From: Flavobacteriales bacterium
GTDB lineage: Bacteria > Bacteroidota > Bacteroidia > Flavobacteriales_F > PHOS-HE28
Direction: 5' to 3'
Length of the DNA stretch: 64,000 bases
Assembly (NCBI GenBank): GCA_026129465.1
Contig: JAHCIA010000001.1
Coordinates: forward strand, 3,307,583 to 3,371,582
The notes beneath the pieces were generated by a model, which had not been told where the DNA came from, did not search any database, and was given only the letters and a program-made list of their open reading frames with translations. The position numbers and the translations under genes are program-made. Positions 27,980 through 64,000 of this stretch are shown here, piece by piece; position 1 is the stretch's first letter, and each line of letters starts with the position of its first letter.

Positions 27980-29374
27980 ATGTCCTTGCGATCCATCCTT
28001 GCGCTTGTTCGCGATGCCATTTGCGGTGGCGAGGACCAGGACTTCACCCGTATGGGGGTCCGGCGCGCCATCGTGCTGCTGAGCATTCCCATGGTGCTGG
28101 AGATGGGGATGGAAAGCGTGTTCGCCTTGGTGGACGCCTTCTTCGTGAGCCGCCTGGGCACGGACGCCATCGCCACGGTGGGCCTCACCGAAAGCGTGTT
28201 GATGATCATCTACTCGCTGGCCTGGGGTCTGGGCATGGGCGTGACGGCCGTGGTGGCGCGGCGCAGCGGCGAGCATGATCCACGCGGGGCATCGCGCTCG
28301 GCCATGCAGGGCATCCTGCTCGCCACTGTGCTGGGTCTGGGCATCGCCGTGCCCGGCTTTCTCTTCGCGGGCGACATCCTGCGGCTGATGGGTGCCGAGG
28401 CCGGTGTGCTCGCCGTGGGCACCGGCTACACGCAGGTGATGTTCGCCTCGAACATCGTGATCCTGCTGCTCTTCGTGAACAATGCGGTCTATCGCGGCGC
28501 GGGCGATGCGGCCATGGCCATGCGGGTGCTGGCGGTGGCCAACGGCATCAACATCGTCCTGGACCCGCTGCTGATCTTCGGCATCGGGCCCTTCCCCGAG
28601 ATGGGCGTCACGGGTGCGGCGGTGGCCACCACCATCGGCCGGGGCACGGCGGTGATGTATCAACTCTGGGCGTTGTCGCGTCCCAAAGGCCGCATCATAT
28701 TGCTTCGCTCGGAGACGCGCCTCGACCCGGCCGTGTTGTGGACCATCGTGAAAGTGAGCGCCGGTGGCGTGGCGCAATTCATCATCCCATCGCTCAGTTG
28801 GGTGTTCCTGGTGCGCATCGTGGCGGTCTTCGGCAGCGCCGCCGTGGCGGGCTACACCATAGCGGTGCGTGTGATCATGTTCAGCATCATGCCGGCCTGG
28901 GGCATGGCCAACGCGGCCAGCACGCTGGTGGGTCAGAACCTGGGTGCCAGGGAGCCGGACAGGGCGGAGCGCAGCGCGTGGCTCATCGGCCACTACAACA
29001 TGTTCTTCATGGTGGGCATCGCGCTCTTCTTCTGGGCCACCGCACCCTGGATCGTGTCCTTCTTCACCTTCGATCCGCTGGTGGCGCGCTACGGTGTGGA
29101 GGCGCTGCGCATCATCTGCCTCGGCTATTTCTTCTACGCCTACGGCATGGTGCTGGCGCAGGCCTTCAATGGTGCGGGCGATACGCTCACGCCCACGTGG
29201 ATGAACATCATCTGCTTCTGGATCATCGAGATCCCGCTCGCCTGGTTCCTGTCCCGAACGCTCGGCTGGGGCGTCACCGGTGTGTTCGCCTCCATCGCCA
29301 TCAGCGAAAGCATCCTGGCGGTGCTCAGCGCGGCGATCTTCAAGATGGGGAGGTGGAAGTTGGTGAAGGTGTGA
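27980..29374 (+). CDS. MATE-family multidrug/cation antiporter
   Basis: 464 residues with 12 hydrophobic segments arranged as two six-helix MatE halves, starting with the cytoplasmic N-terminus VRRAIVLLSIPMVLEMGMES. Typical features include the early PMVLEMGMESVFALVDAFFV block and the acidic residue in helix 1. It exports cationic compounds in exchange for Na+ or H+. Drug or metabolite specificity cannot be read. It diverges from the OmpA gene, with 136 bp between the starts. Confidence 0.95.
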   Translation: MSLRSILALVRDAICGGEDQDFTRMGVRRAIVLLSIPMVLEMGMESVFALVDAFFVSRLGTDAIATVGLTESVLMIIYSLAWGLGMGVTAVVARRSGEHDPRGASRSAMQGILLATVLGLGIAVPGFLFAGDILRLMGAEAGVLAVGTGYTQVMFASNIVILLLFVNNAVYRGAGDAAMAMRVLAVANGINIVLDPLLIFGIGPFPEMGVTGAAVATTIGRGTAVMYQLWALSRPKGRIILLRSETRLDPAVLWTIVKVSAGGVAQFIIPSLSWVFLVRIVAVFGSAAVAGYTIAVRVIMFSIMPAWGMANAASTLVGQNLGAREPDRAERSAWLIGHYNMFFMVGIALFFWATAPWIVSFFTFDPLVARYGVEALRIICLGYFFYAYGMVLAQAFNGAGDTLTPTWMNIICFWIIEIPLAWFLSRTLGWGVTGVFASIAISESILAVLSAAIFKMGRWKLVKV

Positions 29375-29465
29375 AGTGGAGTTGAGAGGTTGGAAGTTGA
29401 TGGTTTGAAGGTCGCGGAGCTGCCGGACGGCACAGGGTCTGCCGACCAACCTCCAATTTTTCAAC

Positions 29466-29485
29466 CCTGCCTGCCGGCAGGCAGG
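29466..29485. repeat. Perfect 20-bp palindrome
   Basis: CCTGCCTGCCGGCAGGCAGG, a self-complementary sequence with no loop, sits in the short gap between the convergent MATE and deiodinase-like genes. The flanks carry the words GTTGGAAGTTG and CCAACCTCC. It may be a terminator, a REP-like element or a regulatory site. No T-run is adjacent. Confidence 0.55.
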
Positions 29486-35996: not shown

Positions 35997-36569
35997 ATGA
36001 GCAAACGCAACATCGTCCTTTTCGGCCCCCCGGGCGCGGGCAAGGGCACCCAGAGCAACTTTCTCATCGAACGCTACGGCCTGGTGCATCTCAGCACCGG
36101 CGATCTGCTCCGCGCCGAGTTGAAGGCCGAGACCGAACTGGGCCTGCAGGCCAAGGAACTGATGGACGCCGGCCAGCTGGTGCCCGATGAAGTGGTGATC
36201 GGCATGATCCGCAACAAGATGGAGGCCCACCACGATGCGAAGGGTTTCATCTTCGACGGTTTCCCGCGCACCAAGGCCCAGGCCGAGGCCCTCGACGCCA
36301 TGCTCGCCGAGAAGAGCGATCCCATCTCCGCCATGCTCGCGCTGGAAGTGCCCGAGGATGAACTGGTGAAGCGCCTGCTCGGGCGTGGCGCCACCAGCGG
36401 CCGCAGCGACGACCAGGATGTGGCCGTGATCCGCAACCGCATCCGCGAGTACGAGACCAAGACCGCGCCGCTGAAGGACTACTACTCCGCGCAAGGCAAG
36501 TACAAGGCGATCGATGGGGTGGGGAGTTTGGAGGACATCACGGAACGGTTGGTGGAAGCGATCGGGTAG
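35997..36569 (+). CDS. adk: Adenylate kinase
   Basis: 190 residues, the short form without a zinc LID. P-loop FGPPGAGKGTQ, AMP-binding TGDLLRAEL and the DGFPRTKAQA motif are intact. The LID region is LGRGATSGRSDDQD. It converts ATP and AMP to two ADP. The gene follows hpt by 27 bp and is separated from obgE by 65 bp carrying repetitive hairpin DNA. Confidence 0.96.
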   Translation: MSKRNIVLFGPPGAGKGTQSNFLIERYGLVHLSTGDLLRAELKAETELGLQAKELMDAGQLVPDEVVIGMIRNKMEAHHDAKGFIFDGFPRTKAQAEALDAMLAEKSDPISAMLALEVPEDELVKRLLGRGATSGRSDDQDVAVIRNRIREYETKTAPLKDYYSAQGKYKAIDGVGSLEDITERLVEAIG

Positions 36570-36570
36570 T

Positions 36571-36630
36571 CGTGTGCGCATGTGCCCATGTGCGCAGGTG
36601 CACATGGCCACATGGGCAGATGGGCACATG
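36571..36630. repeat. Palindromic TGTGC/CATG repeat between adk and obgE
   Basis: The gap consists almost wholly of variants of TGTGCGCATG and CACATGGGCA. TGCCCATGTG pairs with CACATGGGCA (10 bp) and longer imperfect stems can also form. In the operon transcript this would fold into a stable hairpin, perhaps stabilising or attenuating the downstream mRNA. It does not resemble the RAYT-associated REPs in this window. Confidence 0.7.
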
Positions 36631-36634
36631 AACA

Positions 36635-37657
36635 ATGAACTTCATCGACCACATCCGCATCGAGTGCCGCAGCGGCAAGGGCGGCAAGGGCAGCAGCCAC
36701 CTGCGGCGGGAGAAGTACATGCCCAAGGGCGGCCCCGATGGCGGTGACGGCGGCAGGGGCGGGCACATCATCGTGCGCGGCAACGCCCAGTTGTGGACCC
36801 TGCTGCACCTGCGCTACACCAAGCATGTGATCGCCGAGGACGGCCATGTGGGCACCAGCAACCAGAGCAGCGGATCCGCCGGCCGTGACCAGGTGATCGA
36901 ACTGCCTCTGGGCACCGTGGTGCGGGACGCCGAGACCGGCGAGCAGCTCTGCGAGGTGACCAAGGACGGCGAGGAGCACATCCTCTTCAAGGGCGGCCGC
37001 GGTGGGCTCGGCAACCAGCACTTCAAGAGCGCCACGAACCAGACGCCCCGGTATGCCCAGCCCGGCGAACCCGGTGTCACCCGGCTGGTGGTGATGGAGC
37101 TGAAGGTCCTCGCCGATGTGGGTCTGGTGGGCTTCCCCAATGCGGGCAAGAGCACGCTGCTGGCCAGCATCACCGCCGCCAAGCCCAAGGTGGCCGACTA
37201 CGCCTTCACCACGCTGGTGCCCAACCTGGGCATCGTGCCCTACCGCGACCACAAGAGCTTCGTGATGGCCGACATCCCCGGCATCATCGAGGGCGCCCAC
37301 GAAGGCAAGGGTCTCGGCCTGCGCTTCCTGCGCCACATCGAACGCAACAGCGTGCTGCTCTTCATGGTGCCAGCGGACAGCAAGGACATCCGGCACGAGT
37401 ACAACGTGCTGCTGGACGAACTGCGCGCATACAGCCGCGAACTGCTGGACAAGGACCGCCTGCTGGCCGTGACCAAGTGCGACATGCTCGACACCGAGTT
37501 GATGGAGCAACTGCGCCAGGAACTTCCCAAAGGTGTGGACCATGTGCTCATCAGCAGTGTGAGCGGCTTCGGGCTGGAAGAATTGAAGGACGTGCTCTGG
37601 CGCAAGTTGCACGGTGCACAAAAGCAGCGGGACACCTTCCCTGAATGGACCGCATGA
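36635..37657 (+). CDS. obgE: Obg-family GTPase
   Basis: 340 residues. The N-terminal Gly-rich Obg fold ([31 protein letters not shown]) is followed by the G domain: G1 [10 protein letters not shown]3 [17 protein letters not shown]4 TKCD and G5 SSVSG. It assists 50S ribosome maturation and stress control. No C-terminal OCT domain is present, as is common in this phylum. The stop overlaps the start of the PAP2 gene (ATGA). Confidence 0.96.
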
Positions 37658-60752: not shown

Positions 60753-61928
60753 TCAATTCAGGAGTTCGAATACGGAGGCTGCGCCCTGGCCGGTGCCGAC
60801 ACACATGGTGACGACCCCGTACTTCTGCTTCCTCCTTCTCATTTCGTTCAACAGTTGCACGGTAAGCTTCGCCCCCGTGCACCCCAGCGGATGCCCCAGC
60901 GCGATGGCGCCACCGTTCACGTTCACGATGCTGGGATCGATGCCCAGTTCACGCACTACCGCAAGCGACTGAGATGCGAAGGCCTCGTTCAACTCAAACT
61001 GCTCGATGTCCTTCAGCTTCAGGCCGGCAATCTCCACGGCCTTGGGCACTGCCGCCACCGGACCGATGCCCATGATACGCGGCTCCACGCCGGCCACGTG
61101 GTAGGAGAGGAGGCGCGCGATCGGCTTCGCATTGAGCTGCTTCAGCATGCGTTCGCCCACCACCAGCACGAAGGCGGCGCCATCGCTGGTCTGGCTGGCG
61201 TTGCCGGCCGTTACCGTGCCTTTGGCATCGAACACGGGCTTCAGCTTCGCCAGTGCCTCCAAAGAGCTCGCGCGCGGACCCTCATCGGTGTCCACCACGT
61301 ACTTCTCCACCTGGCGTTTCTCCTTCGCGTCCAGGTACACGCGCTCCACTTCGATGGGCACGATGTCGTCCTTGAAACGCCCGGCGGCGATGGCGGCCAG
61401 CGCCTTCTCGTGGCTGGCCAGCGCAAAGGCGTCCTGGTCCTCGCGGCTCACCTTGAAGTCGCGCGCCACGGCCTCGGCGGTGAGGCCCATGCCCCAGTAC
61501 CACGTGGGGTTGGCCTTGCCCACCTTGGCGTTGGGCACGATGCGCCAGCCACCGAAGGGGATGGGGCTCATGCACTCCACGCCACCGGCGATGATGCAGT
61601 CGGCCTGCCCGCTGTGGATCTTGGCCGCGGCGATGGCGATGGTCTCGCTACCGCTGCTGCAGTAGCGGTTCACCGTCATGCCCGGCACCTTGTTGGTGTT
61701 CAGGCCCATCAGGCTGATCATGCGGCCGATGTTCAGGCCCTGCTCGGCCTCGGGCGTGGCGTTGCCCACGATCACGTCGTCGATGCGTTCGATGTCCAGG
61801 TTGGGCACGCTGGCCACCAGGTGCTTCACCACGCCAACTGCGAGATCGTCAGGACGTGTAAAACGGAACTTGCCGCGCCCGGACTTGCCTACGGCGGAGC
61901 GGAAACCTGCGATGATGTATGCGTTCAT
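60753..61928 (-). CDS. fadA: Acetyl-CoA acyltransferase (thiolase)
   Basis: 391 residues. The acylated Cys is in NRYCSSGSETIAIAA. His and second Cys are in NVNGGAIALGHPLGCTGAKL and CVGTGQGAAS. It cleaves 3-ketoacyl-CoA in the last step of beta-oxidation. It is separated by 6 bp from the acyl-CoA dehydrogenase and upstream by 219 bp of repeat DNA from the four-helix-bundle gene. Confidence 0.95.
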   Translation of the reverse strand: MNAYIIAGFRSAVGKSGRGKFRFTRPDDLAVGVVKHLVASVPNLDIERIDDVIVGNATPEAEQGLNIGRMISLMGLNTNKVPGMTVNRYCSSGSETIAIAAAKIHSGQADCIIAGGVECMSPIPFGGWRIVPNAKVGKANPTWYWGMGLTAEAVARDFKVSREDQDAFALASHEKALAAIAAGRFKDDIVPIEVERVYLDAKEKRQVEKYVVDTDEGPRASSLEALAKLKPVFDAKGTVTAGNASQTSDGAAFVLVVGERMLKQLNAKPIARLLSYHVAGVEPRIMGIGPVAAVPKAVEIAGLKLKDIEQFELNEAFASQSLAVVRELGIDPSIVNVNGGAIALGHPLGCTGAKLTVQLLNEMRRRKQKYGVVTMCVGTGQGAASVFELLN

Positions 61929-61936
61929 GGGGGGAG

Positions 61937-62067
61937 TGTCTTATGTCTTCTGACGGTTGACGGTTGCTCGCGGGTCTGGTAGGTCGTGCTATCGGAGAGG
62001 TTTGCTGTATCTGAGAGATTGTCCGTTGTCTTATGAGGGTTGACGATTGCTGGCGGGTCTGGTAGGT
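61937..62067. repeat. TGTCTTATG-type repeats, copies A and B
   Basis: Two direct copies share GTCTTATG, then TGACGGTTGC (or TGACGATTGC), then GCGGGTCTGGTAGGT (61937-61984 and 62020-62067). They are in the same orientation and separated by 35 bp. Related sequence occurs inverted at 62113-62145 and 62570-62634. Confidence 0.75.
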
Positions 62068-62112
62068 AACGCAGTCCGAGAGGATCGCACTACCTGCCAA
62101 ATGGGTGAGCGG

Positions 62113-62145
62113 CATAAGACAACCGACATAGGACATAGGACAGCC
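62113..62145. repeat. CATAAGACA/GGACAGCC-type repeat, copy D
   Basis: CATAAGACAACCGACATAGG, then ACATAGGACAGCC, in inverse orientation to copies A and B. It ends 2 bp before the stop of the four-helix-bundle gene. Confidence 0.7.
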
Positions 62146-62147
62146 AC

Positions 62148-62528
62148 CTAGCTCCGCACCGGCCGCTTCTTGTGTTTCGTTTCCAGTTGTTCCTGCAGTT
62201 TGAAGATCCGGTTCATGATGTGGTCCAGCTCTCCGGTGATCTTGTCCGATTGGGCGCGGGTGATATAGCCCAGCTCGCAAGCGATCATGGACTGTGTGTA
62301 GAGCTCAGCAGCCGAACCGCACGCAATGCCTAGGAAGTGGTAGAACTCGCCATCGTGGTTGCGCGCCGCACCTTCAGCGATGTTGCTGGGCACGGATACG
62401 CCTGCACGCTGCATCTGGCTTGCCAGCCCATAGACCTCCTTTTTCGGGAATTTCTCCGTGGCACGATACACTTCCACTGAGAGGTTCAGGGCCTGTTTCC
62501 ACACGTCGAGTTTCTTGAAGCGGTTCAT
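62148..62528 (-). CDS. Four-helix-bundle protein (S23/IVP family)
   Basis: 126 residues from ATG 62528 (MNRFKKLDVWKQALNLSVEV). The helical signature LDVWKQALNLSVEVYRATEK, PKKEVYGLASQMQRAGVSVP, SNIAEGAARNHDGEFYHFLG matches the 23S rRNA-intervening-sequence / four-helix-bundle family. In other bacteria such genes lie in 23S insertions or scattered in the genome, and the role is unknown. Here the gene is flanked by the repeats at 61937-62145 and 62570-62634. It interrupts the beta-oxidation operon between the multifunctional enzyme and thiolase. Confidence 0.88.
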   Translation of the reverse strand: MNRFKKLDVWKQALNLSVEVYRATEKFPKKEVYGLASQMQRAGVSVPSNIAEGAARNHDGEFYHFLGIACGSAAELYTQSMIACELGYITRAQSDKITGELDHIMNRIFKLQEQLETKHKKRPVRS

Positions 62529-62569
62529 GGTGATGTGGGGTTGGTGGGTTTCGCTCTTGTTAGGCTCAA

Positions 62570-62634
62570 GCAACTGTCAACAGTCATCGGACATAGGACA
62601 GCAACCGTCAGCCTTCATAAGACATCGGACAGCC
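62570..62634. repeat. CATCGGACATAGGACAGC-type repeat, copy C
   Basis: Two back-to-back variants, CATCGGACATAGGACAGC and CATAAGACATCGGACAGCC. Read on the minus strand they give GTCCGATGTCTTATGAAGG, then CTGACGGTTGC, the same motif as A and B. It lies between the FadB-like stop and the four-helix-bundle start. Confidence 0.72.
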
Positions 62635-62635
62635 A

Positions 62636-64000
62636 TCAATTCCGTAAAACCTTCCCCGTCGTTATGATGCTCTGCAACCTCTCCAACGTCTTCTTCTGCA
62701 TGCACAACTCCACGAAGGCCTTGCGCTCCAGGTCGAGCAGGTACTGCTCGCTCACCTCGGTCTTCTCGCTGAGGTCGCCGCCGCAGAGGACGTAGCCGAG
62801 CTTTTCGCTGATGAGCGCATCGTGCTCGCTGATATAGTTGCCGCTGAGCATGCTGTTGGCGCCCACGTAGACGATGCCGAGTCCTTCCTGGCCCATCACG
62901 GTGATGTCCTTGCGCGGCGCGGGCTTGGTGTAGCCCTTGTTCCAGAGGTCCAGCGCGCATTGCTTGGCGTAGGCCAGCTGGTGGGCGCGGCTCACGATCA
63001 CCTCGTCCACGCCGGGACGCAGGTAACCGAGACCGAATGCCTCGTGACCGCTGGTGGCCACCTTGGCGGTGCCGATGGTGAGGAAGCGCTCGCGCATGCG
63101 GTTGATTCGGATGTCGCCTTCCTTCAGTTCATCGCTGAGGCGCAGGGCGAATTCCTTGGTGCCGCCGCCGCCAGGGATGACGCCCACACCGAACTCCACC
63201 AGGCCCATGTAGGTCTCGGCATGCGCCACCACCTTGTCGGCATGCAGGCACAATTCGGTGCCGCCGCCGAGGGTGAGGTTGTGCGGCGCCACCACCACGG
63301 GGATGCTGCTGTAGCGCACGCGCATCATGGTGTTCTGGAAGGTGCGCACGGCCATTTCGAGGTCCTCGTACTCCTGCTGCGCGGCCATCATGAAGATCAT
63401 GCCCACGTTGGCGCCTGCGCTGAACACGGCGGCATCGTTGTAGATCACCAGGCCCTTGCCGCTTTCCTCGGCGAGGTCCATGGCCTTGTTCAGGCCCTGG
63501 ATCACCTCCGCACCGATGGTGTTCATCTTGGTGCTCCAACTCAGGCATAGGATGCCGTTGCCCAGGTCGCGCACCACGGCGTTGGGGTTCTTCCACACGA
63601 TGCTGCTGTCGGGCAGGTCGGCCAATACGATGAGGCCCTCGCCACGGGGCACGGGCTTGTAGCTCTTGCTGGCGGCATCGTAGTACATGCGCTTGCCGCC
63701 TTCCACTTTGTAGAAGCTGGTGTGTCCGGCCTTCAGCATGTCGCCGATCCATGCGGCCATCTTCACGCTGGCGGCTTCCATATCCTTCACCGCCTTCTCC
63801 ACACCGATCGCGTCCCAGTACTCGAAGGGACCGAGTTCCCACGCGAAACCGGCGCGCAGGGCATCGTCGATCTTGTAGAGCTCGTCGCTGATCTCGGGGA
63901 TGCGGTGGCTCACGTACGCGAACAGCGCGTGGAAGCTCTTGCGGTAGAACTCACCCGCCTTGTCCGTGCCGTCGTAGAGCACGGGGATGCGCTTCACCAG
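62636..64000 (-). CDS. FadB-like multifunctional 3-hydroxyacyl-CoA dehydrogenase/enoyl-CoA hydratase (partial)
   Basis: Open to the window edge, so the N-terminal NAD-binding domain is missing. The visible about 455 residues contain the end of the 3HCDH C-terminal domains (ALRAGFAWELGPFEYWDAIG) and a full enoyl-CoA hydratase/isomerase domain: STKMNTIGAEVIQGLNKAMD, then SAGANVGMIFM and HNLTLGGGTELCLHADKVVA. The C-terminal helical region follows. It is the upstream gene of the beta-oxidation run. The intervening repeat cassette separates it from fadA. Confidence 0.93.
   Translation of the reverse strand: MVKRIPVLYDGTDKAGEFYRKSFHALFAYVSHRIPEISDELYKIDDALRAGFAWELGPFEYWDAIGVEKAVKDMEAASVKMAAWIGDMLKAGHTSFYKVEGGKRMYYDAASKSYKPVPRGEGLIVLADLPDSSIVWKNPNAVVRDLGNGILCLSWSTKMNTIGAEVIQGLNKAMDLAEESGKGLVIYNDAAVFSAGANVGMIFMMAAQQEYEDLEMAVRTFQNTMMRVRYSSIPVVVAPHNLTLGGGTELCLHADKVVAHAETYMGLVEFGVGVIPGGGGTKEFALRLSDELKEGDIRINRMRERFLTIGTAKVATSGHEAFGLGYLRPGVDEVIVSRAHQLAYAKQCALDLWNKGYTKPAPRKDITVMGQEGLGIVYVGANSMLSGNYISEHDALISEKLGYVLCGGDLSEKTEVSEQYLLDLERKAFVELCMQKKTLERLQSIITTGKVLRN

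Follow-up and report, generated by a model that had tools for sequence, protein, structure and literature searches.

A short cassette between a FadB-like enoyl-CoA hydratase gene and a thiolase gene of a Flavobacteriales bacterium consists of one conserved S23-family gene enclosed by inverted tracts of a tandem heptamer, and our best explanation, held at about even confidence, is that it is an IVS-type gene-repeat element with an S23 protein that works in trans on repeats in hairpin form. S23 genes are associated with such tracts across phyla. The repeat units are specific to the locus and often common to both arms, and they recur at other sites beside related S23 genes. At precise gene junctions a cassette may be present or missing, and gene-less hairpins built of the same units are dispersed. 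We use the term IVS-type, and not rRNA IVS, because the site lies between two protein-coding genes and not in an rRNA gene.

The S23 cassette and its repeat arms

The window (the whole stretch of DNA analysed, 64,000 nucleotides) contains the cassette and its two neighbours in the following order.

60753..61928, minus strand: thiolase gene, downstream neighbour (PF00108/PF02803)
61934..61969, plus strand: downstream inverted arm 2, TGTCTTATGTCTTCTGACGGTTGACGGTTGC, which stops immediately short of the thiolase ATG (repeat I2)
62018..62055, plus strand: downstream inverted arm 1, TGTCCGTTGTCTTATGAGGGTTGACGATTGCTG, complementary to the upstream arm (repeat I1)
62104..62147, minus strand: first downstream tract, TGTCCTATGTCCTATGTCGGTTGTCTTATG, oriented as the upstream arm and adjoining the S23 stop (repeat I5)
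62148..62528, minus strand: S23 / 23S_rRNA_IVP four-helix-bundle gene, 126 aa (PF05635, TIGR02436, PDB 2gsc homology)
62578..62637, minus strand: upstream arm, TGTCCGATGTCTTATG...TGACGGTTGCTGTCCTATGTCCGATG, directly adjoining the FadB-like stop codon (read from the sequence; repeats D2, I1, I2)
62636..63997, minus strand: FadB-like enoyl-CoA hydratase gene, upstream neighbour (PF00378/PF16113, NCBIfam Staph_FadB)

The preliminary description of this DNA had recognized an S23/IVP-type gene, and profile searches bear this out, with 122.9 bits against PF05635 (curated cut-off 33.8) and 116.4 bits against TIGR02436 (cut-off 24). PDB 2gsc, Xanthomonas campestris XCC0516, is a homologue (E 1.3e-24); its entry has five chains, and the S23 protein is described as a pentamer (PMC4990558). 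PF05635 is the sole Pfam match of the one protein in the cassette, and Pfam profiles detected neither a Y1 tyrosine transposase nor any other transposase there. We know of no nuclease or transposase site in the four-helix-bundle S23 fold. Between S23 orthologues at the same site dN/dS is 0.01-0.16 (mostly at dS 0.3-2.7, the values at high dS being approximate); the proteins are under strong purifying selection, and therefore do something that is selected.

Inverted tracts of a degenerate ~7-nt unit, TGTCCTATG, enclose the gene; on the minus strand the runs of this unit read TGTCCTATGTCCTATGTC... and TGTCCGATGTCTTATG... at the cassette. On the S23 sense strand one run precedes the gene and another in the same orientation follows its stop, and two inverted runs, both part of the duplication at 83-nt spacing, extend to the start codon of the thiolase gene. 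The four motif copies listed in the preliminary description recur at the positions and in the orientations given there: those at 61937 and 62020 are direct and fall within an 80-nt block duplicated at 83-nt spacing (D1, 61934-62013 / 62017-62096, 76%), the inverted copy beside the S23 stop (62113-62128) is 94% complementary to 62020-62035, and the 33-nt inverted copy on the start side (I1, 62599-62631) is 88% complementary to 62020-62052. Repeat I2 spans 32 nt and is 84% complementary to 62600-62631. When the left flank is compared with the reverse-complemented right flank the locus scores 28, against a median of 12 and a 99th percentile of about 20 among 88 control genes; the inversion of the arms is not chance.

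Chance is likewise contradicted by a 15-mer of the window unit, GTCYKATGTCYKATG, three of whose four occurrences in the 3.9 Mb genome fall in the cassette; the window's own unit occurs 44 times in G023, a genome with the same cassette. The three matches to TGACGGTTGC elsewhere in the genome all lie in unrelated coding-looking sequence and were rejected as further cassette copies. An Rfam search returned no relevant family. Elsewhere in the window, positions 1592-1891 and 2087-2386 hold an identical 300-nt stretch, 495 nt apart.

Distribution, gene-repeat coupling and site occupancy

The same anatomy recurs at each of the six PF05635 genes above cut-off in this genome (3.86 Mb main contig), all with inverted flanks and each with its own unit; those at the other loci are AAGTGGC, GTTGTCA, GGCTACT, GAGTGAA and the 8-nt CATGTGCC. 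PF05635 genes are present in 44 of the 45 genomes of the genus. Among the 300-nt flanks of 91 genus genes, 44 on the left and 44 on the right have a local autocorrelation at lag 7 that lies above the 99th percentile of control stretches; lag 14 is the only other lag with a signal, the rest staying near background. The inverted score of these genes has a median of 21 versus 12 for mispaired flanks (p=2e-35, the pairs not being fully independent). In a set of 136 S23 genes, mostly from the genus with others from further Bacteroidota and phyla, 60% score at least 18, compared to 5% of the 88 neighbouring control genes.

Beyond the genus, PF05635 exceeds its cut-off in 74 of 99 Bacteroidota genomes, and inverted flanks occur at 29 Bacteroidota loci (p=6e-9), some with period 8. 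A single-protein search yielded 16 loci. Inverted flanks were also found at single loci in Omnitrophota, Elusimicrobia, Moranbacteria, Prevotellaceae and Scalindua, and the same anatomy is present at S23 loci on plasmids of Gemmatirosa (Gemmatimonadota), of Azospirillum and of the cyanobacteria Nostoc, Pseudanabaena (whose AAAAGCT arrays are long and perfect), Calothrix, Anabaena, Geminocystis and Leptolyngbya. A few cyanobacterial loci have a tract before the gene and little or none after it; one Thermohalobacter and one archaeal S23 locus have no clear arms, and the phage records searched contain no S23 relative. 

Other small genes have comparable surroundings. In the genus, GxxExxY (PD-(D/E)XK-like) genes at PF13366 loci (L215-L244) lie between inverted repeats of a ~9-nt unit, CACCACAGAGGCACAGAGG, with an inverted score median of 24.5 versus 14 and no lag-7 signal, and constitute a parallel gene-repeat class with another small gene. 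Short DUF559 endonuclease-like genes (L261, L266, L268, L273) are flanked by inverted repeats of the CCCCCTTTGAAGGGGG / CTCCCCTCCTG type.

Several observations tie particular units to particular S23 genes. Among S23 pairs at different sites, 38% of those with highly similar proteins share units at a score of at least 20, against a background of 0-4% among pairs below similarity 0.5, and mostly the shared units are oriented alike with respect to the gene. At the FadB-thiolase site the unit TGTCCTATG accompanies one S23 subfamily (in this genome, G000, and in G005, G023 and G035), and AGACCTA-like units accompany another in G013 and G017, 52-53% identical to the first. Similarly, TGATTGC-like and ACGTGTTG-like units at the SufB-SufC site go with two S23 subfamilies that are 45-47% identical. 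Unit calls are noisy, with 27 of 60 loci inverted at 6/7 or better, and by a strict criterion the two arms had changed in concert in one same-site pair only.

A regulator with its own operators, in which the S23 pentamer binds the flanking tracts to autoregulate the operon and the gene-less hairpins serve as further operators, would account for the strong purifying selection on S23, for tracts that abut start and stop codons and for gene-less hairpins between operon genes. However, same-site orthologues that are 75-98% identical differ in their units, which is hard to reconcile with a sequence-specific operator, and we consider this reading improbable.

Occupied and empty sites, which the preliminary description had proposed to look for in sister strains, both occur at SufB-SufC within one genus. 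With S23 and its tracts the gap measures 508-570 nt (six genomes); without S23 it is 12 nt in G013, and another four genomes have 39-57 nt. The tract begins at or right after the upstream stop codon and reaches the downstream start codon, and the target duplication that had been envisaged is not evident at these junctions. With neither a transposase nor an evident target-site duplication, the cassette does not resemble a classical transposon or insertion sequence. A short GTCGACCCAccgGGTCGAC-like hairpin fills the SufB-SufC gap at four loci where the S23 cassette is absent (L285, L286, L291, L293).

The window's own junction behaves differently from what had been assumed, namely that FadB-like and thiolase genes normally adjoin. 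In none of the 21 genus genomes with both ends resolved do they do so directly; S23 lies between them in 6 and other cargo in 15, including, in sister species, AbiEii-like, methyltransferase and schlafen-like genes (named by eye from translations). This site thus provides no clean empty counterpart and, given its occupancy by varied genes, is a general cargo hotspot. It might be argued that S23 is merely one of several exchangeable genes there and that the repeats belong to the hotspot, as suggested by the right-hand tract of the window unit that persists beside thiolase, with S23 absent, in G002, G003, G033, G034 and G044. That S23 genes at unrelated sites have the same architecture with other units already disfavours this possibility, to which we give very little weight. 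A second dispersed repeat, CGCGTGAGGGATAGAAGCGGAAAGCCCGCAGG..., is found at many cargo ends in the FadB-thiolase gap (L195-L214), and S23 genes lie beside thiolase genes in other Bacteroidota families as well (L102, L106, L109, L111, L115, L127).

In sum, the proposal that gene and repeats form one unit is supported by the shared units, the subfamily-specific units and the occupied and empty SufB-SufC gaps. Its corollaries of frequent movement and target duplication are not: many cassettes stay at one site through much divergence, and so transposition is not frequent.

Hairpins without the gene

In 464 kb of this genome the strongest lag-7/8 tracts lie at S23 genes or form gene-less inverted hairpins in intergenic gaps, among them etfB-etfA-like and adk-obg-like gaps, and the units of these hairpins mostly match resident S23 loci. 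Two examples fall in the window.

29348..29470, no strand assigned: gene-less inverted 7-nt tract, AGTTGAGAGGTTGGAAGTTGATGG ... CCAACCTCCAATTTTTCAACC (read from the sequence; weak, missed by the lag-7 scan)
36555..36640, no strand assigned: gene-less inverted 8-nt tract, CATGTGCCCATGTGCGC...GGGCAGATGGGCACATG, in the gap separating the adenylate kinase-like gene from the obg-like gene

The second is built of the unit of another S23 locus in this genome (G000:1761727). The unit of one S23 locus here, GTTGTCNGTTGTC, occurs 75 times in the genome, 71 of them away from that locus, and its count in sister genomes ranges from 0 to 196. Genomes in which a sampled S23 locus has a given unit contain more copies of it (p=0.015 and p=0.012, with S23 loci incompletely sampled), and some genomes have amplified units that are missing from their sampled S23 genes, the gene sampling again being incomplete. 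The preliminary description had held that repeats occurring widely without the gene would refute a joint system. Such copies are indeed widespread, but they are hairpins of the same units, which fits a system of gene plus satellites.

At 100 kb sampled per genome, lag-7/8 tracts number 34 in eight S23-bearing genomes (800 kb) and 0 in four S23-less Bacteroidota genomes (400 kb); with this genome included, tracts are present in 9 of 9 S23-bearing versus 0 of 4 S23-less genomes (Fisher p=0.0014, on only four S23-less genomes and with lineage as a confounder). When one unit was counted over 99 genomes of the phylum only a few S23-bearing genomes stood out, too few of them amplified for the count to discriminate. 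These data bear on the idea of a passive association, in which S23 is an ordinary vertically inherited gene and the heptamer tracts are slippage products in gaps that tolerate them in some lineages. Same-site persistence and strong purifying selection would be expected of such a gene, and among long simple repeats heptamers rank first in several bacteria, according to work cited in PMC4679880. Nonetheless, tracts mark S23 genes far above control genes and stretches, they occur as inverted pairs, related S23 genes at different sites share units, and the samples of the four S23-less genomes lack tracts. We regard passive association as unlikely, although the persistence at one site and the low dN/dS also fit a host-useful gene and in that respect count against an element acting in trans.

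The arms might instead function in RNA, pairing in the operon transcript so that RNase III excises the S23-coding loop and the stem is under selection. The precedent is the 23S IVS of Coxiella, in which an S23 ORF lies in a loop closed by a 28-bp inverted-repeat stem and excised by RNase III (PMC4990558). The predicted fold of the window transcript pairs the outer arms, and cassettes are mostly in sense orientation, with 65 S23 genes sense versus 16 antisense among co-directional neighbours (simple ORF calls). However, the fold is only mildly better than shuffled sequences (z -1.8, with 1 of 20 shuffles as good), and gene-less hairpins contain nothing for excision. Mismatches between arms, moreover, are of the G-U type in 182 cases and of the A-C type in 205 (p=0.26). 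The lack of a G-U excess, unlike what an RNA-selected stem would be expected to show, argues against RNA pairing as the constraint on the arms. We therefore judge excision from RNA to be unlikely too, if slightly less so than passive association. The evidence favours a DNA-level origin of arm symmetry by template switching between arms, slippage or hairpin copying.

A trans-acting S23 protein suggests how such an element, one conserved gene with two tracts that mirror each other and consist of a degenerate unit of 7 nt (elsewhere 8 nt), might be maintained. The S23 pentamer would recognize tract DNA in trans, in single-stranded or hairpin form, an activity proposed here from comparative data, and would help hairpins to be copied and kept. 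Units could expand by slippage, and the arms could be matched through intrastrand template switching. The gene-less hairpins would then spread in the manner of satellites, in a relationship resembling that of REP hairpins to RAYT proteins. Cassettes would survive in intergenic gaps, mostly in sense orientation, such that the host operon transcribes the S23 gene.

Relation to known systems

An S23-family ORF between terminal inverted repeats is the arrangement of 23S rRNA IVSs of the Coxiella and Leptospira type, and in Coxiella GACAGAT heptamers whose number varies among strains lie just before the S23 ORF (PMC4990558). The window cassette differs from these in lying between protein-coding genes, in units that vary by locus, and in its strongly conserved protein, gene-less satellites and arms with no RNA-pairing signature. 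Its tandem 7-nt period is that of heptameric (STRR-like) repeats. Such repeats are described as GGGAATC in Xanthomonas and GGGGA(C/T)T in Nostoc, with 70 inverted heptamer pairs in Xanthomonas campestris (PMC4692102), and TAACTGA in Beggiatoaceae, cyanobacteria and Bacteroidetes (PMC4679880). These heptamers and the cyanobacterial STRRs are likewise intergenic tandem 7-nt units; at S23 cassettes, in contrast, the gene sits between the arms. Term searches of these two papers found no link between the S23 gene family and the repeats. Avd of diversity-generating retroelements is a structural homologue of the S23 family (4DWL with 2GSC; PMC10053308), but neither a reverse transcriptase nor template/variable repeats are seen beside the window cassette.

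The dispersed gene-less hairpins share flank sequence with the gene-bearing copy. REP hairpins and RAYT, a tyrosine transposase system, similarly combine dispersed short hairpins with a gene-bearing cassette with matching flanks. S23 is, however, a four-helix bundle and not a tyrosine transposase, and its repeats are tandem 7/8-mers with fast-changing units.

Some cas operons of cyanobacterial plasmids contain S23 genes flanked by arms of their own (cas6-S23-cas4 and cas10-S23-cmr3; L426, L429, L431). A CRISPR survey counts 23S rRNA IVP among linked families (PMC10910872). CRISPR-linked S23 proteins may be hitchhikers, and caution is warranted in reasoning from guilt by association.

S23 genes have for a long time been familiar as insertions in 23S rRNA or as solo genes without a function, and heptameric repeats are orphan features of cyanobacterial, Xanthomonas and Beggiatoa genomes. 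S23 IVSs, the Xanthomonas/Nostoc and Beggiatoaceae heptamers, and the S23-Avd homology are treated separately (PMC4990558, PMC4692102, PMC4679880, PMC10053308), and in the openly accessible literature searched we found no general link between S23 genes and heptamer tracts, the Coxiella IVS alone having both. That an IVS joins an S23 gene with inverted repeats is already known; the gene-plus-satellite reading would go further. The results suggest that a gene family and a class of DNA repeat, both of them orphans, are two halves of one system, in which a protein with dN/dS mostly below 0.1 contrasts with the fast-turnover tracts around it. It is plausible, with a likelihood somewhat short of even, that S23 proteins are the missing trans-acting partner of inverted heptameric and octameric repeats in many phyla, as gene-plus-satellite elements without a transposase for which the IVSs of 23S rRNA are one niche. 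The tie between S23 and heptamers gives the gene family and the repeats each a testable partner.
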